From Sutcliffiella horikoshii DSM 8719 (GTDB taxonomy: Bacteria; Bacillota; Bacilli; Bacillales; Bacillaceae_I), in assembly GCA_001648575.1 (NCBI GenBank), contig LQXN01000065.1, positions 186,001-250,000 on the forward strand: 64,000 nt of DNA, in the 5' to 3' direction. The first letter of the stretch is position 1; each line of letters starts with the position of its first letter. Positions 29,992-50,863 of this stretch are shown here, piece by piece. Below the pieces are notes generated by a model. That model saw only the letters and a program-made list of their open reading frames with translations. It made no database searches and was not told the DNA's origin. A program made the translations under genes and the position numbers.

Positions 29992-31242
29992 CTATTTGCC
30001 TTTATTATGTTGCTCCTTAAGATACTGGTATCCTTGCATAACCAAATTAATATGATGTGTTGGATCATTTTCTTCCGTTAAAACAGCCCATTTAAAGTAA
30101 AGTTCACTCAATAATTTTTGGTTACCTTGTTCTTTAAAATAATCAATGGTATCTTCGTATAATTTATTCAGTTTTGAAAAAGAAATAAAAGGTAAGTCGC
30201 TTAAATATAGTAAGATAGCTTTAATGTGTTCTGAGCTATCGATGGATTTAGCTTCTAAGTAAAGATTTTCTAATTTCTTAATTAAAAGTTCATTACTTAT
30301 TTGACTATTGATAATTAAATAAAAGTTGGTTGTAATTAAGCCATGGACGTCATTGATTCTTACTTTTATATCTTTAGAGAAATTAAATGATGTAATGGCA
30401 AGATCTTTTTTATTCAACTTAATGAATGCTCTACCTAAGTTTTGCCAAGCAACAGCAGTTAATTGGTAGTCGTTATTTTTTTTTGCAAAATTCAAAGCCT
30501 CATAACTGGATTCCACACTTAATATATATTCTTTATTAGAATAATGATATACAGCTTTTTGAATATATAAACTTGCAAGAGCTTCATTGTTTTTAAGCTC
30601 TTTTGCAAAAATAATTAACTCATCAATTCGTTTTGTGAAATTTTCAAGAATATTTAGTTTCTTCTCCAATAAGAGAATGTTTGTTAATATTTTCAAGTGC
30701 AACTCTTTGTATAGAGAAGGATTTTCATTGATTATAATTTCACCTTGATGTAGTACTTTAAGAGCTTTGGAGAGCTCATTATTTTGGGAATAAAGACTCG
30801 TTTCCATTAGGATTAAATTAAGTTTATCTTCAGTTGTTGTCGAAAGTTTTGTTGAATAATTAATTACCGTTCTGGCTTCATTTAGAAGGTTAAATTTAAT
30901 CATTTTTTTTGTAAGTAGGATATTTGTTTCTAAATTAAACTCCATAAAATTTTCAGAGAATTTAAGGATTTCCTCCTTGTTGGACATTTCAGTTAATTCA
31001 AAATAACTAAACTTTTGAATTAGTTCCATTGAAGTATTGTCTCTGTTAGTTTCTTTAATAATGTTTTCTTTTGGAACATTTAATCGCGCTGCTATACTTT
31101 CAATGATATCTACATTGATATTTAATGTCTTTCCGAGTTCAATATTGGAAATGGTAGCTGGAGTTGTTATGCCTTCCGCTAAGCTTTTCAAAGTTAACCC
31201 TTTTTGTTTTCTTAAATGTCTGATTTTAACTCCATCAATCAT
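29992..31242 (-). CDS. RRNPP-type (NprR/PlcR-like) HTH-TPR regulator
   Basis: 416 residues. Residues about 4-60 are an XRE helix-turn-helix (KIRHLRKQKGLTLKSLAEGITTPATISNIELGKTLNINVDIIESIAARLNVP); the rest is helical TPR repeats, e.g. ASLYIQKAVYHYSNKEYILSVESSYEALNFAKKNNDYQLTAVAWQNLGRAFIKLNKKDLAITSFNFSKD. Size and layout match NprR (about 420 residues), a receptor for an internalised signalling peptide. The divergent 44-residue secreted pro-peptide gene 73 bases away strengthens this. Likely pathway-specific activator of the thiopeptide genes. AAGGTGG ribosome site before ATG 31242. Confidence 0.85.
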   Translation of the reverse strand: MIDGVKIRHLRKQKGLTLKSLAEGITTPATISNIELGKTLNINVDIIESIAARLNVPKENIIKETNRDNTSMELIQKFSYFELTEMSNKEEILKFSENFMEFNLETNILLTKKMIKFNLLNEARTVINYSTKLSTTTEDKLNLILMETSLYSQNNELSKALKVLHQGEIIINENPSLYKELHLKILTNILLLEKKLNILENFTKRIDELIIFAKELKNNEALASLYIQKAVYHYSNKEYILSVESSYEALNFAKKNNDYQLTAVAWQNLGRAFIKLNKKDLAITSFNFSKDIKVRINDVHGLITTNFYLIINSQISNELLIKKLENLYLEAKSIDSSEHIKAILLYLSDLPFISFSKLNKLYEDTIDYFKEQGNQKLLSELYFKWAVLTEENDPTHHINLVMQGYQYLKEQHNKGK

Positions 31243-31314
31243 TGTAAAACCACCTTGTATTATAATTTGAGATGATATATATTAAAATTAAATATGGAAA
31301 AAGGAGGTGAAAAT

Positions 31315-31449
31315 GTGAGAAAAATGTCATTTGTTCTTACTTCAGTCGTTTGTCTTATGGGATTAATACTAATTACGAATGTACAAAGCACTACTTTAGA
31401 TTTGAAAGCAGAGGACCCGCCGATTATTACGGTTATAAAGAATGTTTAA
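31315..31449 (+). CDS. putative quorum-sensing pro-peptide (PapR/NprX-like)
   Basis: 44 codons: GTG start after an excellent AAGGAGGTG (31301-31309), then MRKMSFVLTSVVCLMGLILI (positive start and hydrophobic signal) and a short polar tail ending EDPPIITVIKNV. This is the form of PapR (48 residues) and NprX (about 43): secreted, trimmed, and re-imported as a C-terminal oligopeptide. It is divergent from the RRNPP regulator. A terminator follows at 31544. The mature peptide presumably lies within the last dozen residues. Too short for routine gene finding; confidence comes from site, signal sequence and context. Confidence 0.7.
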   Translation: MRKMSFVLTSVVCLMGLILITNVQSTTLDLKAEDPPIITVIKNV

Positions 31450-31543
31450 AGTTTTATTATACCAAAATCTAAAAATTTAAGTAATCGTATTTTGAATTAG
31501 TCTGATTGCATTAACAACATAAAAAGTAGAACTTATTTCATAG

Positions 31544-31570
31544 AGCTCTGCGATAACGTGCAGGGCTTTT
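31544..31570 (+). terminator. terminator after the signal-peptide gene
   Basis: 8-bp stem AGCTCTGC / GCAGGGCT (one G-U) with an 8-nt loop, then TTTT. It stands only 14 nt before the methyltransferase frame begins, so that gene may depend on read-through. Confidence 0.55.
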
Positions 31571-31583
31571 ATATATAAAGGGG

Positions 31584-32336
31584 CTGAATGAAATTAGTTA
31601 CCAAGGTGTATTTGCTGCAGTTTATAATCAAAGATTTACAAGCTTTTCTAAAAGTGTCGCTCCCCTGTTGGAACGGGAAGTGAAAAATTATGAAGAAGGA
31701 GATTACTTGTTAGATTTGTGTTGTGGGACAGGTCAGCTGGCAAACTATTTTTTAAAAAAGGGTTATAAAGTAGTAGGTGTTGATTTATCCCAAGATATGC
31801 TTTATTATGCGAAACGATTAAATGAAGATTATATAAAGTCTGGTCAAGCGAGTTTTTATTGTGAAGATGCTAGTAATTTTAGTTTGAATGAAAGATTCCC
31901 TGTGGTTATTTCTACATACGATGCATTAAATCATTTGAAAGGTGAAGAAGAATTAAAAGGGTGTTTTAAATCCGTTTTTAATGTAACGAACAAAGGTGGT
32001 TCGTTTATCTTCGACTTGAATACAAGGCTTGGTTTATCAAAAACTGATGGTGTTCATATACATAAAGATGAAAATCAATTAAGTGTATCACAAAGCTTGT
32101 TCATGGGAGATCATGCAGTTACGCAATATTATGGTTTTGTTAAAAGACGTAATGAAAACTTTTATAGTAGATATGAAGAAATAATCACAAATACGATTTA
32201 TGATATGAAATCTGTAAAAGCACTTCTAAATGAGGTGGGATGGGAAGAAGTTTGTTTTCACACTGTAGGTTCATTTGAACAGACTGATGATCCGGAAAGT
32301 GAAAATAGAGTATTTGTTTTAGCAAAGAAACCGTAG
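31584..32336 (+). CDS. class I SAM-dependent methyltransferase, start codon unclear
   Basis: Up to 250 residues. Motif I is LLDLCCGTGQLANYF, then GVDLSQDMLYYAKRL, motif II/III VVISTYDALNHL, and FDLNTRLGL; the family of small-molecule methyltransferases with C-terminal beta-barrel insert fits. The coding frame clearly extends upstream of the first usual start (TTG 31668) through NEISYQGVFAAVYNQRFTSFSKSVAPLLE, but only CTG 31584 or ATT 31593 are available behind AAGGGG. Either a rare start is used or the gene is damaged at its 5' end. Possible O- or N-methylation of the thiopeptide, or self-protection. Confidence 0.7.
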   Translation: MNEISYQGVFAAVYNQRFTSFSKSVAPLLEREVKNYEEGDYLLDLCCGTGQLANYFLKKGYKVVGVDLSQDMLYYAKRLNEDYIKSGQASFYCEDASNFSLNERFPVVISTYDALNHLKGEEELKGCFKSVFNVTNKGGSFIFDLNTRLGLSKTDGVHIHKDENQLSVSQSLFMGDHAVTQYYGFVKRRNENFYSRYEEIITNTIYDMKSVKALLNEVGWEEVCFHTVGSFEQTDDPESENRVFVLAKKP

Positions 32337-32651: not shown

Positions 32652-32807
32652 ATGTCAAAGCAAATGCAAATGTTAGACGTAGAAGAGTTAGAATTTTCTA
32701 TTGTTGAGCTTGAAGATGTAACTGCGTTACCTGAGACAGCTGCATCAAGTGGTTCAAGCAGCTGTGGAATTTCCACTTGTGGATCTAGTTCTTGTTCTAC
32801 GACATAA
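32652..32807 (+). CDS. thiopeptide precursor peptide
   Basis: 51 residues behind AAGGAGGTGTCGAA. The leader (about residues 1-31) is acidic: MLDVEELEFSIVELEDVTALPE, closely resembling thiopeptide leaders with D/E-V-E-x-L and a DVxALPE end. The C-terminal part is only Ser, Cys, Thr, Gly, Ala and one Ile, ending SCGISTCGSSSCSTT with three Cys (38, 43, 48). This is the expected substrate for thiazole/oxazole formation, Ser/Thr dehydration and [4+2] ring closure by the enzymes downstream. The Ser-rich, Gly-spaced core is unlike thiocillin/micrococcin or nosiheptide cores. Confidence 0.88.
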   Translation: MSKQMQMLDVEELEFSIVELEDVTALPETAASSGSSSCGISTCGSSSCSTT

Positions 32808-32826
32808 TGCAATTTTTCATACTAGT

Positions 32827-32862
32827 AGAGGAATAGGGAGTAATCCTTATTCCTCTCTCGTT
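32827..32862 (+). terminator. attenuating hairpin between precursor and operon
   Basis: Stem AGAGGAATA / TATTCCTCT plus GG..CC with one bulge, followed by the weak tail CTCGTTATT. A leaky terminator here would give excess precursor mRNA over the biosynthetic genes, a common RiPP arrangement. Confidence 0.6.
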
Positions 32863-32890
32863 ATTAATATGCTGGAGGTTAGCTTTCTAA

Positions 32891-33775
32891 ATGAATGAAC
32901 TTATAACATTAGAAAATGTTTCAAAGAGATTTGGAAACCGTACTCTATTCGACCAGTTAACCTTAACCATTTCCAAAGGAAAAGTTTTAGGCGTAATAGG
33001 GCATAATGGGGCAGGAAAGACGAGCCTATTTAAATTATTGCTTCAAATGTATCAACCAAGTGAGGGGTCAATTAAGATTCACGATAAAAATTTGGATATA
33101 AAAAATGACATTGGCTATTTACCTGAACAAAGAGGATTATATTTAAAAAACGATATTTATTCACAACTTTTGTCTTTAGGTTATTTGAAGGGGAAAACGA
33201 AGAAGGAACTGATTAAAACTATTGATTATTGGTTGGATTTTTTTGGTATAACAAAAAATAAATACGATATATTAGGGAATCTATCAAAAGGAAATCAGCA
33301 AAAAGTTCAGTTTATTGTGTCGGTTATCCACAACCCGAAACTTCTCATTTTAGATGAACCTTTTAGTGGATTAGATCCAATAAATGTTGATTTATTTATT
33401 AAAGCTATTAGGGAGATAAATAAAGGCGGAAGTACAATATTGTATTCGAGTCATGAAATGGGAAGTGTTGAAGATATTTCAGACCAAATCATGCTTATAA
33501 AAAATGGTGAAATTGTTTTTTATGATACGTTAATCAACATACAGGAAAAATATGGATTCTATTTGCGCGTTAAAAATAAATCTCTTACTCAAGAAATACT
33601 TGAGATGAGTAATTTTAAGTATAGGGAACAAAATGGAGATTTTCTAATAAGTATTGACACACCTGATGAAGCAGAAAAAATACACGAACTTCTACCAGAT
33701 AAATATTCAGAGACGTTTAAAGTTGAGAAGTTTAATTTGGAAGAAATATTTAAAACAGTTAATGAGAAGGGATAA
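32891..33775 (+). CDS. ABC transporter ATP-binding protein
   Basis: 294-residue ABC-2 type ATPase: Walker A GHNGAGKT (residues 38-45), a non-standard signature LSKGNQQKVQ, Walker B LLILDEPFSGLDP, switch His in YSSHEMGSVEDI. The C-terminal extension (about 210-294) is typical of NatA/YhaQ-like exporters. First gene after the precursor; stop and next ATG are 2 nt apart. Exports the product or gives self-immunity with the permease downstream. Confidence 0.88.
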   Translation: MNELITLENVSKRFGNRTLFDQLTLTISKGKVLGVIGHNGAGKTSLFKLLLQMYQPSEGSIKIHDKNLDIKNDIGYLPEQRGLYLKNDIYSQLLSLGYLKGKTKKELIKTIDYWLDFFGITKNKYDILGNLSKGNQQKVQFIVSVIHNPKLLILDEPFSGLDPINVDLFIKAIREINKGGSTILYSSHEMGSVEDISDQIMLIKNGEIVFYDTLINIQEKYGFYLRVKNKSLTQEILEMSNFKYREQNGDFLISIDTPDEAEKIHELLPDKYSETFKVEKFNLEEIFKTVNEKG

Positions 33776-33777
33776 AT

Positions 33778-34707
33778 ATGTCTAATAATAAATATCTAGC
33801 TTACTGGAATCTGTCATCCAAAACTCTTATAAGTCCCAAATCAATAATGTTAGGTTTTATACTTAATGTTATATTCGCCTCTATAGCTGTAACTTATATA
33901 CTCATTTTCGAACCAAACCTTTCTTTTCTTGCAAACACCTCGAATGTGGTAGGAGATCAAACAAGTTCTTTAATCCTTGTAAATATCTTTGCTTTTATAA
34001 TCGTGTTTTTTCTTTTTAGTAATGTCGCAGCGATTATGCAAAGTGTAATAGATGATAGAGATAGTAAAGTTTCAGAGATTATTAATACCAGCATTACAGA
34101 AAAACATTACATTGTAGGAAAGCTAGGTTCCTCTTTACTTTTAATACTAACACTGATGGGAAGTGCACTTGGTGCTTTTGGCCTCGCGATGTTGGTTTTT
34201 TCTTTTTTTAATCCATATGATTTTCAAGTTTATAATGACGTTATCTCTCCAATATTAGGATGGTCTATTGGAGATAACATGATGACCCTGTTAGGAAAAT
34301 TGTTATTATTTTTGTTGGTACTTGCCACTTCTATATTAATTGCATTAGGTTTCTCAATAAAAGTAAATAACGTTGCTGAATCAGCGCCAGTAGCATTGAT
34401 TGTACTAGCTCCTTATTTTCTTTTATTTGGTTTATTGATTTTCTTGCCGAGTGATGATATTACACTATGGGTTCAAATCTCTGCAGTGATGATGTTCGTC
34501 CCACTTATATCGCCGATTTTTCTATGGCTTTTTGTTTTAATTGAAGGCTTTAATCTCCTTTCTTTTATAGCAATTATTTTTACAACCGCATATCTGATTC
34601 TTCTTTTTATTGGAGTGCGTAATATTTATAGTTATGCATTTTATGTAAGAGAAAAAATAAGCCTATCTCAATTACTCAAAATATCCATTATTAGAAAGGA
34701 ACTATAG
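33778..34707 (+). CDS. ABC-2 type transporter permease
   Basis: 309 residues, about six to seven membrane helices (first at 24-44; others near 83-105, 113-140, 178-200, 211-228, 240-268). The loop after helix two has VIDDRDSKVSEIINTSITEKHYIVGKL, the usual NatB/YhaP-like cytosolic motif. Partner of the preceding ATPase. Ends just before the MacB-like gene. Confidence 0.85.
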   Translation: MSNNKYLAYWNLSSKTLISPKSIMLGFILNVIFASIAVTYILIFEPNLSFLANTSNVVGDQTSSLILVNIFAFIIVFFLFSNVAAIMQSVIDDRDSKVSEIINTSITEKHYIVGKLGSSLLLILTLMGSALGAFGLAMLVFSFFNPYDFQVYNDVISPILGWSIGDNMMTLLGKLLLFLLVLATSILIALGFSIKVNNVAESAPVALIVLAPYFLLFGLLIFLPSDDITLWVQISAVMMFVPLISPIFLWLFVLIEGFNLLSFIAIIFTTAYLILLFIGVRNIYSYAFYVREKISLSQLLKISIIRKEL

Positions 34708-34708
34708 A

Positions 34709-36718
34709 ATGATTACACTGAAAAATATCACAAAAAAATTTAAAGATCCAGTATGGCACAAGGTTTTAAACGATGTCTCATTAACTCTAGATAAAGGTGA
34801 TTTTGCTGTAATAACCGGTGCTAGTGGAAGTGGAAAATCCACATTATTAAACATTTTAAGTGGATTAGACAACGAATATGAAGGACATGTGGAATACGAC
34901 GGGGTGGATATTAGAAAGCTAAAATTAGAGAAGTTTAGAAAAGATAAATTAGGCTTTGTTTTCCAAAACTTTAATCTGATTCCGTATATGACAGTTAGGG
35001 AAAATATTGAAATTGCTATGAATTTAGATCGATCAAAGTCGGCAAATGAAAGAGACAAAATAATTAAAGATATTTTAGAAGAAGTAAAGTTATCGGATCA
35101 AATAGATAAAAAAGTAACTCTACTATCTGGTGGGCAAAAGCAAAGAGTAGCAATTGCTCGTGCTTTAAGTAATTCTCCGGAAGTTATTGTAGCAGATGAA
35201 CCCACAGGTGCCTTGGATTCTGTTACTGCAAAAGAAATAATGGATATTTTTTTCAACCTTACAAAAAACGGGAAAACCGTGGTCATAGTAACACATGACC
35301 ATGAGTTAAAGAAATATGCAAATAAAGTCTTTAATATGAAGGATGGAAAGCTCAACCAAGAATTAAATAAGGATTCGGGAATTAAGTCCTTACATAACCA
35401 AGTAGAAAAGAAGTATAAAATAGGGAATTCACTCCTTTTCAAACAGGCAGTAAAAAATTTTTTGAACAGAAAGAAGAGAAATATAGGTGTATCAATTGGA
35501 GCCTCAATAGGTGTTATCGCATTATTGATATCTCTTTCGATAGGAGAAGGCGTGAACAATGGAATTGACAGAATGTTAAGTGGTTCTTTAAATCCAGAAG
35601 AAGTTTATGTTTTCTTTGATGCTACCGGGACTGGGCAAAGTGCTCCAACATTAGAGATGACTTCCAATGAAATCCAAAAAGCTAAGAATCTAATGGAAGA
35701 AGAGGGTATTACAGAGATTTATGAAACAGCACAAATAATGGGAGCTACCCTCGAGTATCAAGGTCATTTACTGACAGATAATACTACAGTTCCTACCATC
35801 ATTGAAGAGGCCAACCTTAAGGCTGAAAGGTATGAAAGTTTTAATGTGGAAAATGAGGTTTTACTTGCTGGAGAGATGGTAAAAGAGCAAGAACGTGGAA
35901 TTGTTATTAAATCTCAGACGGCGGAAAAAATTCTCAACTTAGAATACAATAAAGAGTTAGATGAAAAAAATGCAAATGAGTACTTGATTGGCACGAATAT
36001 TACCGTAACCTATTCCTATCGCGATGATAATGAAATGATGACCTCTACAGCAGAAATTCCCATAGTAGGAATAATGAATCCAAATGATGAAACTCCTATG
36101 ACAAATGCTCTTATCTCAAAACAAGGGTATAAAGAATTGACTACGGACGTGAATATCCCGAGGCAAATTTATATGATCACTGGATATGCAGATAGTGCTG
36201 CTGCTTCAGATGCTATAGTAGAGAAACATAAAGAATCCAAAAATAGCGATTATCAAGGGTTAATAATTTCTAATTCTTCAGACTTTATGGGCCAACTTAA
36301 TAACATTGTATTAATGATTACGGGCCTATTATCATTTATGTCAATATTATCCCTTGTAGTTGCCGGCGTAATGTTGGCAGTGGTTCTTACGATTGGCGTT
36401 ATTGAAAGAACGAGGGAAATCGGAGTGCTGCGAGCTTTAGGATATAACAAAGGTGCTATAAGGAAAATCTTCCTGTCGGAGGGGGCTTATATAATCGTCC
36501 TTTCAAATATTATAGCAGTATTGATTGTGCTTCTTTTATCAGTAGCAGTAAACCCACTACTTGAAAATCAGTTTTCCATTGCGAATGTTATTAGTTTAAG
36601 TATCAGTAACATTTTGATAACTCTCTTTGCTACTACAATAATTGGGTTGCTTTTTGCTGTCATACCAGCTTTTAAGGCATCTAATATGAATATCGTTCAA
36701 TCACTAAGGTATGAATGA
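34709..36718 (+). CDS. MacB-like ABC transporter, ATPase fused to FtsX-type permease
   Basis: 669 residues. The N-terminal ATPase (about 1-220) has Walker A GASGSGKS (37-44), signature LSGGQKQR and Walker [14 protein letters not shown]. The C-terminal part has one helix (about 255-275), a large extracytoplasmic domain to about residue 530, and three further helices with the FtsX motif ERTREIGVLRALGYNKGAIRKIFLSEG. One polypeptide holds both functions, as in MacB. Its role could be removal of the thiopeptide from the membrane or export alongside the ABC-2 pair. Its TGA overlaps the next ATG. Confidence 0.88.
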   Translation: MITLKNITKKFKDPVWHKVLNDVSLTLDKGDFAVITGASGSGKSTLLNILSGLDNEYEGHVEYDGVDIRKLKLEKFRKDKLGFVFQNFNLIPYMTVRENIEIAMNLDRSKSANERDKIIKDILEEVKLSDQIDKKVTLLSGGQKQRVAIARALSNSPEVIVADEPTGALDSVTAKEIMDIFFNLTKNGKTVVIVTHDHELKKYANKVFNMKDGKLNQELNKDSGIKSLHNQVEKKYKIGNSLLFKQAVKNFLNRKKRNIGVSIGASIGVIALLISLSIGEGVNNGIDRMLSGSLNPEEVYVFFDATGTGQSAPTLEMTSNEIQKAKNLMEEEGITEIYETAQIMGATLEYQGHLLTDNTTVPTIIEEANLKAERYESFNVENEVLLAGEMVKEQERGIVIKSQTAEKILNLEYNKELDEKNANEYLIGTNITVTYSYRDDNEMMTSTAEIPIVGIMNPNDETPMTNALISKQGYKELTTDVNIPRQIYMITGYADSAAASDAIVEKHKESKNSDYQGLIISNSSDFMGQLNNIVLMITGLLSFMSILSLVVAGVMLAVVLTIGVIERTREIGVLRALGYNKGAIRKIFLSEGAYIIVLSNIIAVLIVLLLSVAVNPLLENQFSIANVISLSISNILITLFATTIIGLLFAVIPAFKASNMNIVQSLRYE

Positions 36719-38118
36719 TGAAAAGAGATTTATCTATATTTATTGAGTTTAGTTTACATCTGGAGGGTGGTCTTTATAAAGGCACTCTCCGGAGAGGAAT
36801 TTTTCAAAATTCCTATTGTTGTGTACACACAGAAAGGAATTTAGAAGAAAGGGAATTGCGGTTAATTTCTTTTTATAAGATTATTGAGAGCATTGGTCCG
36901 GATGTTATCGTTTTATCCGGTGAAGCTAATGAATTCTTGAAAAATATTTACGACTTCTTGAAAGATCAATACCAACATTGTCGGCTCATATTTAATCCAA
37001 CAAAAAATCCTTTCGACAATTCCTATCTCCGAAACCCTTTCATCAATGGATTTATTTTGTCTTTATCAGGCTTATACCCAAGAAATTTATTCAAATCAGG
37101 CCATAAACATATAATGAATTTTAAGAAAACGACCTCCTTGAACGATAGCATGAAAGAAATAATAGTCAAGAAAAGCTTTAACTCATCTTTTATTACAAAT
37201 GTTGAAGATAATAATCTAGAATTACCTTTTCTAGAGAAAATTATTGTCAAGGGTGATTCAGAGGTTGAAGGTAAATTTGATATAGCTCTGCTGCATTCAG
37301 GTGAAAAATACTCTCTTATATCAAAGGCATTTAATAAAAGAAAAAGCGTTCAAGTGAGTGGTGAGTCCGATCGGCAAATTAACATGTTTAGTTTTGAGAA
37401 ACCAGAAGATCTTCAAGCCTTCAGTGAATATGTTCACAATATAAATGAAAACGGCATTTTACCTGCTTCGGATTGCTTATATACCTTAAAGGATGAGTGT
37501 ATGTGGTCACCTGGTAGTTTTTGTTCACTCTATGAAGAAATAAGAACCAATATCTCCAAGGACTATCCTTTTTCTGAATTTTCATGTGTTGAAATAGGTA
37601 AAAAGGATACACATGTAGCGGTGCAAGCCTTGTTGGAACTTAATGATGAAAAATGCATTCTATTCAATAACGATGCTTCCATGCAAGAATCCTTTTCTTA
37701 TATCAAGAAAAGTAATTTATTTATTGGACAGTTTATAAAAATTAGAAATATCCTAAAATCTTTTGTTGTAGGTAAAAGGGGATTTGATTACAATGCGGAT
37801 TTCAAATTCAATACACCTATGACCACTCACTTATCTTTTTCTAAAATAACCGACTTAGCTTTACAGGATAAGGAGTACTTTATTTTCCAATACAAAGATA
37901 GATTTTATTTATATTCAAAGAACAAATATTTGTATTATGAAATTTCAATAGGGTTAGCAACTATATTAGAAGTTTTTATGTATGAAAGTATCCTGGAGCG
38001 AGCCATTGTTCATATTAAAGAAGTTGTTGATATTAGCGAATCCAAAACTAAATATTTGATAGATAAAATGGAAGATCGTTTTGGCATTTCTATTACAAAA
38101 GTAGGTGTTAATAGTTGA
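36715..38118 (+). CDS. unrecognised thiopeptide-cluster protein, possible degenerate radical-SAM fold with PqqD-like end
   Basis: 467 residues that I do not firmly recognise. The segment about 60-95 (IGPDVIVLSGEANEFLKNIYDFLKDQY) is spaced like the GGE-motif strand-helix of radical SAM enzymes, but there is no CxxxCxxC; SYCCVHTE is all that remains there. A Cys group at about 252-268 (DCLYTLKDECMWSPGSFC) recalls SPASM-type clusters. The last 75 residues (KYLYYEISIGLATILEVF ... DKMEDRFGI) read like a PqqD/RRE leader-binding domain. It could chaperone the precursor or be a cryptic tailoring enzyme. Overlaps genes on both sides, so firmly in the operon. Confidence 0.6.
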   Translation: MMKRDLSIFIEFSLHLEGGLYKGTLRRGIFQNSYCCVHTERNLEERELRLISFYKIIESIGPDVIVLSGEANEFLKNIYDFLKDQYQHCRLIFNPTKNPFDNSYLRNPFINGFILSLSGLYPRNLFKSGHKHIMNFKKTTSLNDSMKEIIVKKSFNSSFITNVEDNNLELPFLEKIIVKGDSEVEGKFDIALLHSGEKYSLISKAFNKRKSVQVSGESDRQINMFSFEKPEDLQAFSEYVHNINENGILPASDCLYTLKDECMWSPGSFCSLYEEIRTNISKDYPFSEFSCVEIGKKDTHVAVQALLELNDEKCILFNNDASMQESFSYIKKSNLFIGQFIKIRNILKSFVVGKRGFDYNADFKFNTPMTTHLSFSKITDLALQDKEYFIFQYKDRFYLYSKNKYLYYEISIGLATILEVFMYESILERAIVHIKEVVDISESKTKYLIDKMEDRFGISITKVGVNS

Positions 38119-39395: not shown

Positions 39396-39399
39396 TTTC

Positions 39400-40149
39400 A
39401 TGAAAACCGTATTAATTACAGGTGCAAATAGTGAGATTGGTTTTTGTATAGTGGAGAGCTTTTATCAAAAAGGTTGGAACATAATATGCACAGATGTAGA
39501 AGGCGAACTGATGGAGCTGGAAGAGAAGATTAAAAATATAACGACAGACACTACTCGTTCCAATAACATTATATTCCGACCACTGAATTTATTAGCAAAC
39601 AATGCGAAAGTTGAAATTGATCATATTATTGAGGGTCATCCTATTCATACATTAATAAATGTAGCAGGAATAAATATATTAAAGCGTTTTTTGTCATTTA
39701 CTGAAGAGGATTTTCGGAATATTCTCACTATAAATGCTACTAATACCTTATTGTTAAGCCAAGTGATAACGGAGAACATGATAAGAAATAATCTCGAAGG
39801 TAATATAGTTTTTATTGGTTCTCAACATGGTATAGTGGCCAATCATAATCGTGTGCCATATTCTATTTCTAAATCCATTCTAATACACGTGACGAAGTCG
39901 CTATCTTTAGAATTATCACCATTCAGTATCAGGGTAAATTGCGTTTCTCCAACATTCATACAAACTGAAAAGAACAAGGCTTTACTTGAGGATTCATTAT
40001 TTAAAGCTGAAGCATTGGATCGGATTCCTTTAAGGAAATATGGTTTACCCAAAGATGTAATGGAGGCTGTTATGTTCTTAATTGATGAAAAATCAGCAAT
40101 GATTACAGGTCATAACTTAGTAGTAGATGGAGGTTGGACAATTCAATGA
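39400..40149 (+). CDS. short-chain dehydrogenase/reductase (possible C-terminal Thr oxidase)
   Basis: 249 residues, classical SDR: TGANSEIG nucleotide site (7-14), NVAG (87-90), catalytic Ser141, Tyr154 and Lys158 (YSISK), and closing ITGHNLVVDGGW. In the thiocillin/micrococcin pathway SDRs TclP and TclS oxidise and decarboxylate the C-terminal Thr and reduce the ketone. The precursor here also ends in Thr-Thr, so a TclP-like role is plausible. Only one SDR is present, with an aminotransferase in place of a second. Overlaps the dehydratase gene by 4 nt. Confidence 0.88.
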   Translation: MKTVLITGANSEIGFCIVESFYQKGWNIICTDVEGELMELEEKIKNITTDTTRSNNIIFRPLNLLANNAKVEIDHIIEGHPIHTLINVAGINILKRFLSFTEEDFRNILTINATNTLLLSQVITENMIRNNLEGNIVFIGSQHGIVANHNRVPYSISKSILIHVTKSLSLELSPFSIRVNCVSPTFIQTEKNKALLEDSLFKAEALDRIPLRKYGLPKDVMEAVMFLIDEKSAMITGHNLVVDGGWTIQ

Positions 40150-42785: not shown

Positions 42786-43927
42786 TGGACTATCGAGTTA
42801 TTAAATTTTTTATGTACGATAAAAAAATAATGAAATCTATTATTAAGAGTTTAAGCGCTCATTTAAATGATTTTAAAGATAATGGACAGCATTTTATAGT
42901 CCAAAGAGGATGGAAACAAGGTGCGCATTTAGGGGTAGCTTATGATCCTAAAAATACTTCTACCAGTAAAGAGTTTAGGGACTATGTGTACAACTATTTT
43001 TTAAAGCTGCAGGATAGAATGAGTAACGAAATTGACATTGAGGATGTAGATTATGAAAAGTATGAAAAAATGATTCATAATGTTGCTATTTTAGAAGGCT
43101 ATGAGGGAAAATATTTACCTTTACTAAAAAATCTTACAATTATAGAAGATGAGGTGGAAATTGGCAGTTCTCTCAAAGGGAATACATTAGTGTTAAATGA
43201 AGAAATAATAAGAACAAAATTTTTATTGCAGGCAATAGAATATTACGAGGAATTAGAAAACAGTGAAAAAAGTGTCTTCTTGCTTAAGCTATTCACCATA
43301 CTTGGCGATTATAAAACATTGCTGACTCAAACATCCGAGCCTATTAATGAGTCTTATTTATCATTTAAATCTCATTGTGAAGGTTTTAAAACACAATTAA
43401 GTAAATACTCTGAAAACCAACGGAATATGATTATTAGTAAACTAGAACCAAACTCAGAAGAGGAGAGAAGTTTTGTTTACCAGGACTTCAGTTTGTTCTT
43501 GGATGAATATCGTAAGGGGTTTACTAATTCTTTGGAGAAAGAAACAAAGATATTGATCGGGTTCCAAGAATCTTTAATGAAATTAGATTCTTTATTTAAT
43601 ATCGCAATCGATTGTGGAGACATACAATTAACGAAGGAACACTCATTGACGGAATTTCTCAACAGCAATCATCAAAACTTAAGCGAGTTTCATAAATTTG
43701 TGGTGAAGAATGTGGACATAGAATTCTTCTCGAGTGACGAAAATGTATTAGGCAGGCTTTTAGTGAATTGGTTCTATAATTTATTACCTCTATTATCCGT
43801 TTCACCTTTAGAGAAAAATAAATTATGCAATTGTATCTGTTTAGCAGTGGAGAATAAAGAAAATAAGAACTATCGTGATTTCATTTTAGAATTTACCCAT
43901 ACTTTAGAAGGAAGTGTGCGTAAATGA
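42782..43927 (+). CDS. probable pyridine synthase ([4+2] cycloaddition), TbtD/TclM-like
   Basis: 381 residues. The start (VIKFFMYDKKIMKSIIKSLSAHLNDF ... HFIVQRGWKQGAHLGVAYDP) follows the SpaB-C/thiopeptide-type domain pattern with the W-x2-G-x-H-L strand. Its length is near TbtD (363 residues) and unlike the 290-residue elimination enzymes, so I propose it as the enzyme closing the central pyridine and releasing the leader. Overlaps neighbours on both sides by 4 nt. Roles of this and 47384-48280 could be swapped. Confidence 0.65.
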   Translation: MMDYRVIKFFMYDKKIMKSIIKSLSAHLNDFKDNGQHFIVQRGWKQGAHLGVAYDPKNTSTSKEFRDYVYNYFLKLQDRMSNEIDIEDVDYEKYEKMIHNVAILEGYEGKYLPLLKNLTIIEDEVEIGSSLKGNTLVLNEEIIRTKFLLQAIEYYEELENSEKSVFLLKLFTILGDYKTLLTQTSEPINESYLSFKSHCEGFKTQLSKYSENQRNMIISKLEPNSEEERSFVYQDFSLFLDEYRKGFTNSLEKETKILIGFQESLMKLDSLFNIAIDCGDIQLTKEHSLTEFLNSNHQNLSEFHKFVVKNVDIEFFSSDENVLGRLLVNWFYNLLPLLSVSPLEKNKLCNCICLAVENKENKNYRDFILEFTHTLEGSVRK

Positions 43928-45408
43928 GTACATTGTTAAATGTAGACACTCATTTACAATATAAAATTGTAAATGATGTGTTATTTATTATAAAAGGGGA
44001 CAGGGAATTTAAAATTATCAGTCCAAAAATGATTACCATTTTGAAGAAGGAAGTCCCATCCATTGAAAGTGATTGGTTAAAGGAAGAGGATTTGATAATA
44101 AATGAAGACTTTATGAATCTGGTGAAAAAAATCAATCAACACATAGCAAAAAACAATGTAATGAATGAAGCAAAAGAACTTAAAATCTTTAATACGCATA
44201 ATGAAATTAGCTGTCCAATAATAGAGAAAAATTCAGTATTGTCCTTAAGTGAAGCCAATATTTTTATTATGGATATCCATAAAACTGAGTATATGAATAA
44301 ATTGGATGAGGTAGCAGAAGAAACGGTATTTATAGTTATTATATCAAAAGAAATTATTGTAACCAAAAATAAAGAGTTTGTTCATTCCCAGTTTCATACG
44401 AATGTGATTAGTTATGACAAACCAACCGATCTAGATGTTAGTTTGGCTCTTAATAAAGCAATTGAATTACTTTATGAAAAAGAGAAATTTGAAAGTCTAT
44501 TTTATATAGATTCAAAAAGTAGATTAGCCATTAGTGAACAATATTATATAGACGATTGGACTAAAAGCAAAAAACTATTAAATCAGGATTTTGTTATCCC
44601 AAATAATAATGAAGAGGAAAATTATGAGGTCATCTCCGGTTTTCTAAAAAGAAATTCAAGAGTTGCTCAAGTTAATCAATATAATGATTTAAATCAAGTA
44701 CCATATAATATTTCTTTAGCTACATTTAAGAGTAGGGATCATATAGAAGAGTATTATTCTGTGTCTGATTCACCAATTAAAAGTTATATAGAAGCATTTA
44801 ATGGTGGTTTGGCAAACTTTTTAAATAAAATCGATGAAGAGAAGTCGACTTTTGCAGAGTGGATATGGGCAAGTTCGTCATCCGATATAGAAAAGACTAA
44901 ATATAGGCTATTAATAAGACACTCTCTAAAATGGAATAAAAACTTATTAAGATATTGCGAAGTGGACCTAGATACTGCTATTCACTTAAATGAGGATATG
45001 TATTTTAAAAGGACTCTCATAAAAAGTGCAATAAAAAGAGAGTGTAGTAGTTTCTTTTTCAGATTCCTCCATTTAAAAGGTACTTCTTATTATGCCCTTT
45101 CCGTATTGAATCAAAATAATATGGAAGTATGGAATTCAGTTGGAAAGAGTTTAAGTGTCTTATTTAAATTAGGTTTAACTTTTTTATATGCTACGGCAGT
45201 TCAAAACAAAGCGAAATTAAATGAAACAAGTGATTCATTTCCAAATAATGATCTGGAAGAATATACGATGGAGGATTTACTTCCTTTAAAGGAACAGATA
45301 GACATAGACTTTGATGAAAAATACCCTTTTACTATTTACGAGTGGAACTACAACCACCTTTTGAATAGAAGAACAACTATTTTAAAAATAGTATTGGAGA
45401 CTTTTTAA
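43924..45408 (+). CDS. probable leader-binding / Ocin-ThiF-like cyclodehydratase partner
   Basis: 494 residues. The first 75 residues (LQYKIVNDVLFIIKGDREFKIISPKMITILKKEV ... LVKKINQHIA) look like a winged-helix leader-recognition element. The middle (VFIVIISKEIIVTK ... ALNKAIELLYEK) suggests a remnant Rossmann-like region, and the C-terminal third is helical. By position beside the YcaO gene it should be the precursor-binding partner of the cyclodehydratase. No zinc-binding CxxC pairs are seen, unlike true E1 proteins. Family assignment is an inference. Confidence 0.55.
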   Translation: MSTLLNVDTHLQYKIVNDVLFIIKGDREFKIISPKMITILKKEVPSIESDWLKEEDLIINEDFMNLVKKINQHIAKNNVMNEAKELKIFNTHNEISCPIIEKNSVLSLSEANIFIMDIHKTEYMNKLDEVAEETVFIVIISKEIIVTKNKEFVHSQFHTNVISYDKPTDLDVSLALNKAIELLYEKEKFESLFYIDSKSRLAISEQYYIDDWTKSKKLLNQDFVIPNNNEEENYEVISGFLKRNSRVAQVNQYNDLNQVPYNISLATFKSRDHIEEYYSVSDSPIKSYIEAFNGGLANFLNKIDEEKSTFAEWIWASSSSDIEKTKYRLLIRHSLKWNKNLLRYCEVDLDTAIHLNEDMYFKRTLIKSAIKRECSSFFFRFLHLKGTSYYALSVLNQNNMEVWNSVGKSLSVLFKLGLTFLYATAVQNKAKLNETSDSFPNNDLEEYTMEDLLPLKEQIDIDFDEKYPFTIYEWNYNHLLNRRTTILKIVLETF

Positions 45409-45421
45409 AGGAGAGAAAATA

Positions 45422-47359
45422 ATGGAAATACAAATTTTAACGTCAGGTGGTTTGTTGGCATCCTCTTTTGAAAAGTTTGTTGATTCGAATACTAGTTATA
45501 TTCAAAACTTCGATGAAATTAACCAAGAGAATTTATTGCTGTATTTAACTGATAATTTCGATATGGAAGAAGAAAAACTTTTATTCGATTATTGTAGAAG
45601 AAATAATGTCTCCTATTTACGTGCTAACTTATTGGGGAAAAGTGGCTACATTGGCCCATTCTATAAGAATGGTTCCCCAAGTATTGTAGATTTTGTTAGC
45701 AGAATGAAGATAAATTCACCGGAACATAGGCTACTATTGAGAGAAAAAGTCTATCAAGCTATGGAAGATATGGATACTAGTGAAGAAAAAACTATATTTT
45801 TACAGTTAATTACTCATAAAATAGAAAGTTTAATAGAATTATTTACATTCGATTATGAAAATGTTGAAGGAAGGATTTGGATAATATCCAGTGACCCTCT
45901 GAATATAACGGAACATCAAATCACAAAGGATATAAATAACCAAGATTATCAAGTAACTTTCAACGAATCGGCACTTTTTGATAAGGAAATGATAAAACAG
46001 TCACCTGATTCATACCGTACAAAAAATACATTTGATTTAGATAGTATCAGGAAGAAGTATTCGGATTCCATATTTGGAGTATTTAAACATACATACATAT
46101 CAACACAATCATCATGGGTACCAATGGTTGGCTCGGAGAGCAATTTAGAAGCCGAACATCATAATAATGCTTATGGCCGTGCATTTGATTATAAAAAAGC
46201 AGAACTATCCGCCCTGCTAGAAGGTTTAGAAAGACACTATAATTCGACTAACCACCAGGGGAGAAAATATATTTATGGTTCATACAATCAGTTAAAGAAG
46301 GACGCAATTCATCCCTCGAAATTTGGTCTTCATACAGAGAAAGAAAGAATGCATCTGAATTTCGAATACACAGAGTATCATGATGACCTTGAATTTAATT
46401 GGGTATGGTCTTGGTCGGTAAGGTATTCAAGGTATGTACTGATACCGGAGCAGCTTATTTATTATTATGACGATACATTAAAAAAGAAGGAGAAAAGATT
46501 TGTTTATGATTCTTCAAATGGCGCAGCTCTTGGAAACAACATCGAAGAGGGCTTGTTATATGGTCTGTTTGAGTTAATCGAAAGAGATAACTTTTTTGTT
46601 TCTTTTTATAATCAACTCTCATTAGTAGAAGTAGATATTCATAAATCGGGACTAGATGATATTGTTTCACTAACTGAATACTTAAAATCTGAAAATTATA
46701 GTATACATTTCTTTGACATGTCAATGGAATTAAAAATCCCTTCCATTTGGGGCGTCATGATCAATCATTCGGATGGAGCTATTGTTAAGACATATAATGC
46801 TGCTGGCGCACACTTTAACCCAGAAGATGCGTTGAGAAGTGCATTAATTGAATGTGTTACATCTGTCCCTGTTTATGAAGAAATATATACCAGTGAAGCA
46901 TTACAATCAAGGAGAAGAGAAATTGTAAATAATCCTGAGAAGTTAACAGAATTTGAAGATCATGTTCTCTATTATTCTCATGAATTATCACTGAAAAAAT
47001 TAGATTTTTTATTTAATGAAAAACGGGAGATAAAATCGTTACAAGAAATCTATCCAGAGTGGTATTGTAACCAGCTATATAAAAATAAAACTTTAAATGA
47101 GGATATTATGCAATTATTAGATAGAGTCTTTAATTATTATGATGATATTTATTTGACTGATCTTTCCGGAGAAGAATTAAAGGAAGTTGGTTTGTCTTGT
47201 GTGAAAGTTTGTGTGCCAGGAATGCAACCTGTTACTTTTGGAGAGCAGCATAAAAGAATTTTGCTTGACCGGGTGTTGAAAGCTCCAGTGATTTCAGGAA
47301 GGTTGGAAGTAGAACAAGAGATAGATTTATTGAATAAGGAACCACATCCTTTCCCTTAG
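45422..47359 (+). CDS. YcaO cyclodehydratase with N-terminal E1-like remnant
   Basis: 645 residues. Residues about 1-205 resemble the C-terminal half of a ThiF/E1-like protein (NVSYLRANLLGKSGYIGPFY). From about 215 the YcaO domain follows: DYKKAELSALLEGLERHY, ERFVYDSSNGAALGNN, EGLLYGLFELIERDNFF, and ALRSALIECVTSV carry the ATP-binding acidic residues. The C-terminus HPFP is a short form of the Pro-rich tail of azoline-forming YcaO proteins. It should turn Cys and possibly Ser/Thr of the core into azolines with ATP. AAAGGAGAGAAAATA precedes ATG. Confidence 0.85.
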   Translation: MEIQILTSGGLLASSFEKFVDSNTSYIQNFDEINQENLLLYLTDNFDMEEEKLLFDYCRRNNVSYLRANLLGKSGYIGPFYKNGSPSIVDFVSRMKINSPEHRLLLREKVYQAMEDMDTSEEKTIFLQLITHKIESLIELFTFDYENVEGRIWIISSDPLNITEHQITKDINNQDYQVTFNESALFDKEMIKQSPDSYRTKNTFDLDSIRKKYSDSIFGVFKHTYISTQSSWVPMVGSESNLEAEHHNNAYGRAFDYKKAELSALLEGLERHYNSTNHQGRKYIYGSYNQLKKDAIHPSKFGLHTEKERMHLNFEYTEYHDDLEFNWVWSWSVRYSRYVLIPEQLIYYYDDTLKKKEKRFVYDSSNGAALGNNIEEGLLYGLFELIERDNFFVSFYNQLSLVEVDIHKSGLDDIVSLTEYLKSENYSIHFFDMSMELKIPSIWGVMINHSDGAIVKTYNAAGAHFNPEDALRSALIECVTSVPVYEEIYTSEALQSRRREIVNNPEKLTEFEDHVLYYSHELSLKKLDFLFNEKREIKSLQEIYPEWYCNQLYKNKTLNEDIMQLLDRVFNYYDDIYLTDLSGEELKEVGLSCVKVCVPGMQPVTFGEQHKRILLDRVLKAPVISGRLEVEQEIDLLNKEPHPFP

Positions 47360-47383
47360 AAATGGAAATAATGGAGGTCACAT

Positions 47384-48280
47384 ATGAATAATTGGACGGC
47401 ATTTCATATCTTTTACCATCGTTTCGAAAAACATGATGAATTAATTCAACTTTTGACAAAAGAAGCTTATTACTGGGAGGAGAAAAAAAATCTTCAAAAA
47501 TGGTTTTACTTGAGGTATTGGGAGGGAGGACCGCATATTCGTTTCAGAATATTAAATGCATCGCAAGAAGCCCGAAATCATTTTTATCATCAAATGACAG
47601 AATTTATAGCTAAAAATAAGCCAACAGAGGAAGTGTTAACTAAAGAGGAGTATTATAAAAATCATAAATTTGATGGGACACCAATAACTAACACGGATTT
47701 GTTATGGTACCAAGATGGAGAAGTAAAGATTTTTGATTATATCCCTGAATACGAGCGATATGGTGGGCATGAAGTAATGCCATTTTCTGAGACAATCTTT
47801 ATGCATTCTAGTAAAATCACATCGTATATTCTAAAAAATTATCTTAAGTTTGAACATAAATTAATCTATGGAGCAGCTCTATACTTTTGTATTTTTCAAG
47901 AAGTCTGCAAAAAATTCCACTTAACCCCGGTTGAAGACTTCTTGGAAACTAATATAGATTTTTGGAAAGTATATAAAAGCGACTCTGAAGATAAAATAAT
48001 AAAGTTTTTCTTGAATAATGAAGATAATTTAAATAAGATAATTCTTACTTTGGAAAAGGAACCAACTATCACCCCAATCATTACCTCCATTCTACAAGAG
48101 TTTCAACAGATTCATAAAAGTATTGATTCATTAGAAATAAAACATTCCATATTAGGATCCCATTTACATATGACAGCAAACCGACTTGGAATTTCACCTC
48201 CATTTGAAAGGGGGATTTTAATATGGATTCTTCAAAGGGTAACCCTCATGGAGAAGAACGTAAACCCAAGCAACCAATAA
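47384..48280 (+). CDS. thiopeptide-type biosynthesis protein, probable glutamate-elimination enzyme (TbtC/TclL-like)
   Basis: 298 residues with the classic thiopeptide-type domain start: WTAFHIFYHRFEKHDELIQLL...KWFYLRYWEGGPHIRFRI, where the W-x-GGPHIR-R strand is the hallmark. Length matches TbtC (about 290 residues), which removes glutamate from glutamylated Ser/Thr to give dehydroamino acids. AATGGAGGTCACAT precedes ATG. Its 3' end overlaps the dehydrogenase gene by 58 nt, unusually long for the operon. Confidence 0.8.
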   Translation: MNNWTAFHIFYHRFEKHDELIQLLTKEAYYWEEKKNLQKWFYLRYWEGGPHIRFRILNASQEARNHFYHQMTEFIAKNKPTEEVLTKEEYYKNHKFDGTPITNTDLLWYQDGEVKIFDYIPEYERYGGHEVMPFSETIFMHSSKITSYILKNYLKFEHKLIYGAALYFCIFQEVCKKFHLTPVEDFLETNIDFWKVYKSDSEDKIIKFFLNNEDNLNKIILTLEKEPTITPIITSILQEFQQIHKSIDSLEIKHSILGSHLHMTANRLGISPPFERGILIWILQRVTLMEKNVNPSNQ

Positions 48281-49011
48281 TTAAATTATGGGATTATCAT
48301 CATGATTACCGTGAGAAATATATTGACTACCATGTTAATTCCTTGAATACAAAATTATTTGCACCTAGTCAAATGTATAGAGGGATATCACAACCAATCT
48401 ATAAGCGGTATTCCAACTCTCCTAATATTAAAGTATCAAATGATTACAATGTTGATAGTGAGTTTGAGAATACGATGATGCAAAGGAGAAGTGACACGAC
48501 CTGGGAGAATAAAACACTTATAGATAATGATTTATTATCTTCTTTCTGTCGCTTAGTATTTTTTGGGAACGCATTAGGTAAAAGAAATTATCCTTCAGGT
48601 GGTCAAATGTATCATGTCAATGTTTATTTTGTTTTTAATCCAATGCATTCAAATATTCTCGTTGACGGCCATTTAAATGTTGGATATTTGGATTTTCTAA
48701 GTGAAGAAATCATTTTTATCAATAAAATAAGCTGGGAAAAGGTTATTGACTCATACTATCCAGTTTTACCCGTGGAAAAAGCAAGTATGTGTATAATTCT
48801 TAGTGTGAATTTATATGAAATAGACAAAAAATATAAAGACCTGTCATATAAACTAGTCCAACAAGAAGTGGGACATATAGGGCAAAATATTCAGTTGGCA
48901 GCAGGCTACTACGGGATAGGAAGTGTGCCATTACAAGGCTATTATGATATAAAACTCTCTAGATTAATTAGTGATGATGAGATGGTATTATCAACATATT
49001 TACTAGGGTGA
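48223..49011 (+). CDS. SagB-type azoline dehydrogenase (nitroreductase fold)
   Basis: 262 residues. Nitroreductase-like features: MQRRSDTTW (FMN-phosphate Arg pair), YPSGGQMYHVNVYFV, and QQEVGHIGQNIQLAAGYYGIGSVPLQGYYD, which matches the SagB-type family. It should oxidise thiazolines/oxazolines to thiazoles/oxazoles using FMN. Start ATG 48223 lies 58 nt inside the previous gene with AAAGGGGGATTTTAAT as site. Confidence 0.85.
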   Translation: MDSSKGNPHGEERKPKQPIIKLWDYHHDYREKYIDYHVNSLNTKLFAPSQMYRGISQPIYKRYSNSPNIKVSNDYNVDSEFENTMMQRRSDTTWENKTLIDNDLLSSFCRLVFFGNALGKRNYPSGGQMYHVNVYFVFNPMHSNILVDGHLNVGYLDFLSEEIIFINKISWEKVIDSYYPVLPVEKASMCIILSVNLYEIDKKYKDLSYKLVQQEVGHIGQNIQLAAGYYGIGSVPLQGYYDIKLSRLISDDEMVLSTYLLG

Positions 49012-49032
49012 CCAAGGGTTGGTGGATTTATT

Positions 49033-49845
49033 ATGTATTTATTAGATTTAAAATACGAATTGAAGCATGTAGATGATGTTTTTGTTTTTTCTAATTTAAT
49101 TTATGGTTCTAGTGAATTTGCATTTAAAGGGAAGTGCAACTATTTTAAACTCAAAACATTATTATATAGAGGTTTCAGAATAACCGAATCAGAATCAAAA
49201 GGATTAGAAAATAAGGTTGTAGATTTACTTATTAATAAAAAACCGGAGTTATTCATTGAGCTGACCAGTGAAACGGAAGTGGAAATGTATACAAGTAACA
49301 GGGAATTTATAGAAATACATAAAAACTCTTTCTTTCATAGGGATGGGTTGGCAGAATTTTTACAAAAGTGCAATGAATATACATTGAAAGGTAAAGCACT
49401 AAAATTAGCATTAGATGGTAAGTATAGTAATAGTTATTTTCAAGAAAGACTTAAGAGAATTCCATTCGTAGAAATTCACACAAGTGAGAAAGCAGAAGCT
49501 ATTTTGTGTGATTACCGTTATAAATGTCAAAATCCAAATATTCGTTACCTGATATATTTATCAAACACAGCTGGAGATATTTTAATTGGTCCTTTGATAG
49601 ATGCGGAGAATTTTGTATTAAATAATGACCAGCATATAGTAAGCGAGAATCCCCCCTTACATGAAAATGAGATGGAGCTTATTTCATTCTTTTTGCATAA
49701 AATAATCTATTTATTATTATTCGAATTATATGATCAAATAGATGATATTCCATATTTCCCGTCAAGGTATGGACTACAATTAAACCGAGTTAATTTGTCT
49801 ATTAAGACGTCAAGCATTTCGCTTAGGGAAAAAAAATCGGGTTAA
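49033..49845 (+). CDS. E1-like / Ocin-ThiF-like fragment protein
   Basis: 270 residues, last gene of the cluster. The region IRYLIYLSNTAGDILIGPLIDAENFVL resembles the IGP..-PG segment of E1-like cyclodehydratase partners, as also seen in the YcaO N-terminus, but the following Cys residues are absent. The first half is beta-rich (FVFSNLIYGSSEFAFKGKCNYFKLKTLLYRGF). May bind the leader or complete a split E1-like module together with 43924-45408. GGTTGGTGG upstream of ATG. Confidence 0.5.
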   Translation: MYLLDLKYELKHVDDVFVFSNLIYGSSEFAFKGKCNYFKLKTLLYRGFRITESESKGLENKVVDLLINKKPELFIELTSETEVEMYTSNREFIEIHKNSFFHRDGLAEFLQKCNEYTLKGKALKLALDGKYSNSYFQERLKRIPFVEIHTSEKAEAILCDYRYKCQNPNIRYLIYLSNTAGDILIGPLIDAENFVLNNDQHIVSENPPLHENEMELISFFLHKIIYLLLFELYDQIDDIPYFPSRYGLQLNRVNLSIKTSSISLREKKSG

Positions 49846-50841: not shown

Positions 50842-50863
50842 TATTCTACTGGGGGGAGTCTAA

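Follow-up and report, generated by a model that had tools for sequence, protein, structure and literature searches.

A predicted thiopeptide gene cluster with a daptide-like C-terminal module in Sutcliffiella horikoshii DSM 8719

The stretch of 64,000 nucleotides of Sutcliffiella horikoshii DSM 8719 analysed here (contig LQXN01000065.1, positions 186,001 to 250,000; called the window and numbered from its first letter) carries a thiopeptide-type gene cluster, and what distinguishes this cluster is a daptide-like C-terminal module. Between the transporter genes and the gene of the lantibiotic dehydratase-like protein LanB-N, at 36715-40149, lie genes for a protein of 467 amino acids (aa), a class-III aminotransferase and a short-chain dehydrogenase/reductase (SDR). 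Judged by sequence, this trio resembles the DapB-DapD-DapC module by which the C-terminal Thr is converted to an amine in daptides. It is probable that the cluster would direct the synthesis of a thiopeptide with its C-terminal Thr converted to an amine, and the most likely product would be a thiopeptide ending in 1,2-diaminopropane; the putative enzyme identities are drawn from homology and conserved residues. A preliminary description of the locus had recognised a thiopeptide gene set in one operon, and every gene it named is present. Its inference of a thiopeptide product gained support for the biosynthesis from family and PDB matches, whereas the three genes of the module had been overlooked in its gene list.

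According to the excerpts of two daptide papers used here, the DapB partner and the dehydrogenase DapC turn the C-terminal Thr into aminoacetone, which is aminated by DapD and dimethylated by DapM (PMC10036551, PMC12338566). In Bacillota, DapC is an SDR of family PF13561, and the excerpt of the former calls the micrococcin decarboxylase a DapC homolog (PMC10036551). Corresponding features are found in the window, where all operon genes lie on the plus strand. The 467-aa protein (36715-38118), a putative oxidative-decarboxylase partner, is DapB-like: its family profile aligns with the 815-aa DapB-like protein of genome G455 (hhalign 99.4%). For the aminotransferase (38115-39395), a DapD-like enzyme that would convert the ketone to the amine, the best NCBIfam model is daptide_amino (NF041821) with 325.8 bits, under the cut-off of that model, and the lysine K264 that binds pyridoxal phosphate is invariant. 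The SDR (39400-40149) resembles DapC and TclP, would carry out the oxidative decarboxylation of the C-terminal Thr and matches the broad family PF13561 (3.9e-41). It shares 45-48% identity with three SDRs of hybrid clusters, as we call those that combine thiopeptide genes with this module, and the catalytic residues N112, S141, Y154 and K158 are invariant; the best ordinary SDR of the same genome reaches 36% to the window SDR. The precursor peptide ends in Thr, as the daptide reaction demands. No peptidase match that would point to an RRE-peptidase DapP was found among the operon genes, three of which are without any match. Since the pyridine synthase is expected to release the leader and DapP was not found, we speak of a daptide-like module and not of a daptide cluster.

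The link to daptides was examined with three comparison clusters, namely that of G455 and two plasmid clusters of Staphylococcus epidermidis and Weissella, called daptide-type by gene content; the methyltransferase of the G455 cluster scores 260.1 bits against a daptide cut-off of 175. An aminotransferase tree of 20 rows unites the six hybrid and three daptide enzymes in one set with a support of 100/99, separate from six class-III aminotransferases of the genome to which the window belongs and from five other outgroups. An SDR tree places the hybrid SDRs with one daptide SDR and the SDR of G108 (98/100). This tree is equivocal, for reasons given below, so that the evidence for the SDR rests mainly on synteny and on the identity to the hybrid enzymes. 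The daptide_RRE model matches the G455 DapB-like protein with a score of 27.7 bits (E 1.4e-6), its cut-off being 150. A pattern G-x-Y...KH...NS, formulated after the alignments had been viewed, occurs in nine of 336 distinct open reading frames (ORFs) of at least 200 aa, all nine being DapB candidates; the window protein reads NSSF and fails the pattern as written.

The thiopeptide part of the operon begins with the precursor MSKQMQMLDVEELEFSIVELEDVTALPETAASSGSSSCGISTCGSSSCSTT (32652-32807), which has a core rich in Ser, Cys and Thr and matches PF19409 (Thiopep_pre, 4.8e-13) and NF033400 (32.1 bits, over the cut-off of 30). Glutamylation and elimination are assigned to a split LanB pair. LanB-N (40134-42785), putatively glutamylating Ser and Thr, matches PF04738 (3.6e-9), and a profile of four LanB-N sequences finds PDB entry 6ec7, annotated as a lantibiotic dehydratase domain protein, at 3.1e-19. 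Of the two small LanB-C-like proteins, the 298-aa protein (47384-48280) is, on these sequence comparisons, best read as the TbtC-like elimination protein (PF14028 3.1e-33; TIGR03891 88.4 bits, cut-off 48.45). Its profile finds MibB and, in NisB, the C-terminal portion; RYWEGGPH and an HM-T-x-NR region are conserved among its relatives. The 381-aa protein (42782-43927) is best read as the pyridine synthase, a putative formal [4+2] macrocyclase. NF045556 (TbtD_PbtD_pyrid) covers nearly its whole length with 56.9 bits, under the cut-off of this model; the family profile finds PbtD (1.2e-8) and TbtD (6.6e-4) in the PDB and retains the W-x-x-G-x-H, S-F-x-S-H and RLL-x-N...Y regions of PbtD. The earlier claim of two LanB-C/thiopeptide-type proteins is therefore borne out by the PbtD/TbtD and MibB/NisB matches, and neither protein failed to align with such families.

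Azole formation is indicated by a YcaO cyclodehydratase (45422-47359) with the C-terminus PHPFP, which exceeds the cut-off of TIGR03604 (SagD family; 267.6 bits against 219.25), and by a SagB-type azoline dehydrogenase (48223-49011; PF00881 6.4e-8), which stays under that of TIGR03605 (51 bits against 78.4). Two further proteins are probable partners. The 494-aa protein (43924-45408), conserved in related clusters at 17-20% alignment identity, probably serves in azole formation; it matched nothing in Pfam or the PDB and neither of two comparison proteins. The 270-aa protein (49033-49845) is probably an E1-like or leader-binding partner. It aligns with three homologues without having their Cys pairs, and the homologue in locus L026 shows a weak TIGR03882 match (18.8 bits, cut-off 36.9).

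The combination is found in other Bacillota. When 397 genomes of the order were searched with the 381-aa protein, six gave matches, which besides the window were strong in G002 and G216; the match in G108 was weak, yet this genome proved to contain a thiopeptide cluster, and the weak matches in G247 and G283 were left out of the counts. The profile of the 467-aa family detected three of 398 genomes of the class (the window, G478 and G455), and a scan of 84,980 species with this family yielded Bacillus kwashiorkori, Cytobacillus gottheilii, Caldalkalibacillus mannanilyticus and Paenibacillus sambharensis, the first locus corresponding to G216 and the third to G478. In these four species and in G002, one or more precursors are accompanied by genes for the DapB-like protein, the aminotransferase and the SDR in that order, so that with the window the aminotransferase stands between the other two in all six clusters. 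LanB-N and the pyridine synthase are visible in four of the five species, the C. mannanilyticus contig ending inside the SDR gene, and the pyridine synthase is conserved in the four hybrids with visible thiopeptide genes.

Two of the hybrid clusters have lipoprotein-like genes of 272-274 aa downstream of the SDR (L013 10971-11795 and L010 7638-8456). They are similar by eye and are possible immunity proteins.

The last residue of the precursor goes together with the module. A Thiopep_pre search in the 398 genomes of the class gave 15 matches, 13 of them over the cut-off, and 12 further neighbourhoods were read, extending at most about 18 kb to either side; the two matches under the cut-off (G514, G561), with no matching biosynthetic gene nearby, were excluded from the counts. 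In all four clusters with the full module (window, G478), with DapB and SDR (G108) or with an SDR remnant (G562), the precursors have Thr as their last residue. In the nine clusters without the module (G497, G531, G537, G539, G547, G566, G642, G667, G722) the final residue is M, C, W, Q, S, G or A and in no case Thr. Not corrected for kinship, the association gives a Fisher value of 0.0014 in the class sample and, equally uncorrected, of 4.1e-5 when the four hybrids found by other routes are added (Thr in 8/8 against 0/9). Counted by distinct precursor form from the conserved leader end, Thr occurs in 9/9 against 0/14. No SDR or DapB match at E 1e-2 was obtained in the nine module-less clusters. 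In one of them, G539, a fragment of a class-III aminotransferase (26-27%) is encoded on the opposite strand, some 17 kb away from the precursors and at the end of the stretch read, and the pyridine synthase match of G642 is weak (0.003). The micrococcin precursor likewise ends in Thr, and the Staphylococcus hominis micrococcin record lists SDRs. For the daptide enzymes, a C-terminal Thr is the only apparent strict requirement in the excerpt of PMC12338566. The association of the module with a Thr at the end of the precursor provides a simple rule for the prediction of the tail from sequence.

In G562 (L138 442-1188) the Thr-ending precursor is directly followed by the C-terminal part of an SDR, and no DapB-like or aminotransferase match was found there. 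This part looks like a deletion remnant of a hybrid module.

A pathway can be proposed on this basis. LanB-N would glutamylate Ser residues, from which the 298-aa protein would eliminate to give dehydroalanine (Dha). Thiazoles would be formed by YcaO, probably assisted by the proteins of 494 and 270 aa, together with the SagB-like dehydrogenase. The 381-aa protein would join two Dha residues into the pyridine and release the leader. At the C-terminus, the SDR and the DapB-like protein would turn the last Thr into aminoacetone by oxidative decarboxylation, and amination of the ketone by the aminotransferase would give 1,2-diaminopropane. The three ATP-binding cassette (ABC) genes probably provide export or self-protection, and control is probably exerted through the divergent regulator described below. 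The full picture, in which a 17-membered azole-bearing pyridine macrocycle and a cationic diaminopropane tail are made by two end-specific tailoring systems recurring in several Bacillota families, is one we hold tentatively, at rather less than an even chance.

Several observations weigh against a thiopeptide with an amine end. The scores of two key enzymes lie below the equivalog cut-offs, which are 450 for the aminotransferase and 325 for the pyridine synthase, the latter being missed by far. The 467-aa protein of the window matches no Pfam, NCBIfam or RRE/PqqD model, and is 22-23% identical to the related proteins, whose extra cysteines are mostly absent from it. When it comes to comparisons of DapB proteins, the S. 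epidermidis protein reaches 9% and that of Weissella 79% (both single-sequence), and the 382-aa protein of G108 21%. In the SDR tree, the two rows from outside the hybrid clusters that group with the hybrid enzymes have long branches, and the enzyme of G455 clusters with ordinary SDRs. A methyltransferase tree sets the window protein apart from three daptide methyltransferases, with weak support, and no characterised product of such a cluster was found in the literature searched.

Different ends of the molecule have to be considered. The same scaffold might, like micrococcin, carry a tail processed no further than aminoacetone or aminoisopropanol, with the aminotransferase acting on a different substrate. 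The excerpt of PMC12724294 describes micrococcin clusters in which two dehydrogenases modify the C-terminal Thr, the S. hominis record lists no aminotransferase, and G108 combines a DapB-like protein and an SDR with a Thr-ending precursor without an aminotransferase match. We nevertheless regard this outcome as improbable, since the aminotransferase keeps its place between the two other genes in every cluster of the series and belongs to the daptide set. A tail carried further, to the N,N-dimethylated Dmp end of daptides, would need the upstream class-I methyltransferase dependent on S-adenosylmethionine (31584-32336, plus strand) and is unlikely too, if slightly less so. This gene is placed between the regulator and the precursor, and in a small search its product aligned with the daptide methyltransferase of G455 over 139 aa (28% identity, 6e-16). 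However, its NF041820 (daptide_MTase) matches of 53.6 and 56.3 bits stay under the cut-off of 175, and such matches under the cut-off occur in 14/14 control genomes. The tree puts the protein nearer to a genus-wide methyltransferase, again with weak support; matches to it exist in all 15 other genomes of the genus searched (best 25-30% identity), and none was found in the other hybrid loci. The start codon is odd as well: the coding-like frame extends to a CTG at 31584, the first start in the ORF list being the TTG at 31668. After the tree and the control search, the assignment as DapM was rejected as unproven. Methylation of the amine would be possible in principle; the assignment being unsupported, the predicted tail stops at the primary amine.

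Two further explanations touch the whole product and are both very improbable in our view. The cluster could make a linear azole- and dehydroalanine-containing peptide with an amine end, similar to goadsporin, which is not known to contain a pyridine. LanB-N does match a goadsporin protein in the PDB weakly (2e-7), whereas the retention of the PbtD regions and the conservation of the pyridine synthase in four hybrids argue for the macrocycle. Alternatively, the cluster could be decaying and yield nothing, as the loss of Cys pairs in the 270-aa and DapB-like proteins and the methyltransferase without a normal start might indicate. Against this, the frames of the operon are open and overlapping, the catalytic residues of SDR and aminotransferase are intact and the stem-loop behind the precursor is present. 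A thiopeptide with an aminated C-terminus is the reading that we prefer to all of these.

The size of the predicted ring can be discussed on the basis of the precursors. All 23 distinct related forms (26 genome entries) share the motif S-x-C-[GA]-S-x-S-C with fixed spacing, in the window as S-T-C-G-S-S-S-C. The core had been described as unlike known ones; placed among its relatives, it is not isolated. The stretch of 7-11 residues between leader end and motif and the tail are both variable across the 23 forms, and before the motif a single Ser is present in all of them, the second residue of [ST]-S-G. Ring sizes are counted with three atoms per residue, which gives 26 atoms for Ser1-Ser10. 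By this count, ring closure within the motif yields 17 members in all 23 forms. A ring starting from the invariant Ser of SG would be 41-membered in the window precursor and 35- to 47-membered across the family. Such counting agrees with the pyritides in the excerpt of PMC9247985, which are formed from Ser1 and Ser6/Ser7 and have rings of 14 and 17 members. Engineered pathways cover rings of 14 to 68 members in the excerpts of PMC7210931 and PMC9247985, so the enzymology is no arbiter of ring size. We consider the 17-membered ring of S-T-C-G-S-S-S, the size of pyritide A2, an even bet or slightly better, and a larger ring from the invariant Ser before Gly in SSG less likely.

Further starting points were tried and set aside. 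For the window precursor, a 26-membered ring that ends at the final Ser of S-S-S-C is excluded, the partner position being Cys. Rings starting from the first residue after the conserved leader end are disfavoured by the Thr found there in four of the 23 forms (G642, G667, G722), and rings from a Ser of the GSSS stretch by one G539 form, which has no Ser between SSG and the motif. A small-ORF control for the motif (128 of 6055 with the motif) was uninformative because precursors recur in overlapping loci.

Compared to known systems, the cluster resembles those of micrococcin P1 and thiocillin (tcl) in its thiopeptide machinery and in having a C-terminal Thr as the predicted substrate of SDR-type dehydrogenases. 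In contrast, the S. hominis record lists no aminotransferase and has an extra gene for ribosomal protein L11, which is not among the window operon genes, and the micrococcin core SCTTCVCTCSCCTT is without the S-x-C-[GA]-S-x-S-C motif. With the daptides (mpa, tfDap, saDap and Bacillota clusters) the window has in common the DapB-like protein, the PF13561 SDR, the class-III aminotransferase and the C-terminal Thr. Daptide clusters also include an RRE-peptidase and a methyltransferase in the excerpt of PMC10036551, whereas the window cluster should rely on the pyridine synthase for leader release and would yield a thiopeptide. The excerpts of PMC10036551 and PMC12338566 mention in passing daptide clusters with thiopeptide-like pyridine synthases or thiopeptide-type YcaOs. 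These are probably of the same kind as the window cluster, their members, precursors and products not being given in those excerpts, and the combination is therefore not wholly new. Pyritides and lactazole have a pyridine macrocycle as predicted here, of 17 members in pyritide A2 (PMC9247985) and 32 in lactazole (PMC7210931); unlike the window, the pyritide A cluster has no azole genes in the excerpt of PMC9247985, and neither of these two excerpts mentions a daptide module.

Thiopeptides are potent translation inhibitors and poorly soluble. A natural, enzymatically made cationic tail would bear on this solubility. The natural series of clusters with no tail module, with DapB and SDR, and with DapB, SDR and aminotransferase would allow a stepwise view of how another peptide class came to acquire a C-terminal module.

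The operon is compact and comprises 14 genes at 32652-49845, namely the precursor gene and, behind a stem-loop, 13 genes (32891-49845) with overlaps or gaps of at most 24 bp. The preliminary description had let the cluster start at 29992; the operon itself starts at 32652, and the divergent regulator and the methyltransferase upstream need not be biosynthetic. The first of the 13 genes encode an ABC transporter ATPase (32891-33775; PF00005 9.2e-26), an ABC-2-type permease (33778-34707; PF12698 5.5e-6, under the cut-off) and a MacB-type ABC transporter for putative export or self-protection (34709-36718; PF00005 1e-36, FtsX 1.3e-17). The stem-loop (32827-32856, plus strand, 13 pairs) could be an attenuator, a processing site or a weak terminator and is the only terminator-like site listed in the region, 0.4 being expected. 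The fold of 32808-32890 has a z-score of -3.67, equalled by one of 200 shuffles, and the structure may keep the precursor level above that of the enzymes.

The G+C content of the block is 29-34%, compared to 38-46% in the left flank and 32-40% in the right flank. The right flank is likewise AT-rich, and composition alone is thus no marker of an insert. Acquisition, as originally proposed from the AT-rich block, agrees with the contrast to the left flank and is plausible from the patchy distribution, the 381-aa protein being found in none of 15 other genomes of the genus searched. It finds no backing in the right flank or in the search for an empty insertion site: left and right flank DNA matched the same genus at different loci, with no clean site. 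A dispersed repeat of about 275 bp, with dozens of partial to near-full copies in the genome, lies just downstream of the cluster (50565-50842).

Beside these observations on the operon, some features of related proteins were noted. The DapB-like proteins of L026 (10001-11461), L010 (10542-11987) and L024 (14547-16994) contain KDECMW, as a variant in L024, and a C-x2-C-x5-C-x2-C pattern, which we take to be SPASM domain-like. Over this part, the G455 protein matches a radical-SAM maturase model weakly. DapB may be derived from a radical-SAM/SPASM protein, most of these cysteines being gone from the window protein. In the module-less cluster of G667, a methyltransferase gene (L143 14911-15567; 25.5% to the G455 daptide enzyme) lies about 2 kb upstream of the precursors.

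Upstream of the methyltransferase and divergent from it, a protein with a helix-turn-helix (HTH) and tetratricopeptide repeats (TPR) is encoded at 29992-31242 on the minus strand (PF01381 1.1e-8, weak TPR_12). It is RRNPP-like and the probable cluster regulator. Similar HTH-TPR proteins are found near the thiopeptide clusters of G002, G531, G537 and G566 and at a second cluster of the same genome. Between regulator and methyltransferase, a 51-aa ORF (31294-31449, plus strand) looks like a secreted peptide, its basic start being followed by a hydrophobic stretch and then a short tail, and is a candidate signalling peptide; no family match was found for it. Secreted-looking small ORFs adjoin the HTH-TPR regulators at both peptide clusters of the genome (31294-31449 and L095 10681-10836), and these pairs suggest a control by peptide pheromones.

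The second cluster is of the thiopeptide/pyritide type and was found on contigs C12 and C34 (L093 3507-12775 and L095 279-9548), perhaps as an assembly duplicate or as a real second copy. It encodes a 987-aa protein with similarity to LanB-C, a 327-aa protein, YcaO, a 353-aa protein, a transporter-like protein (by eye) and the HTH-TPR regulator, and its likely precursor is a short ORF ending MGASQGYNSCSSVVTQA. The second YcaO locus was considered as a copy of the window cluster and turned out to be a different cluster. An SDR gene about 16 kb from it adjoins regulator- and dehydrogenase-like genes, as judged by eye.

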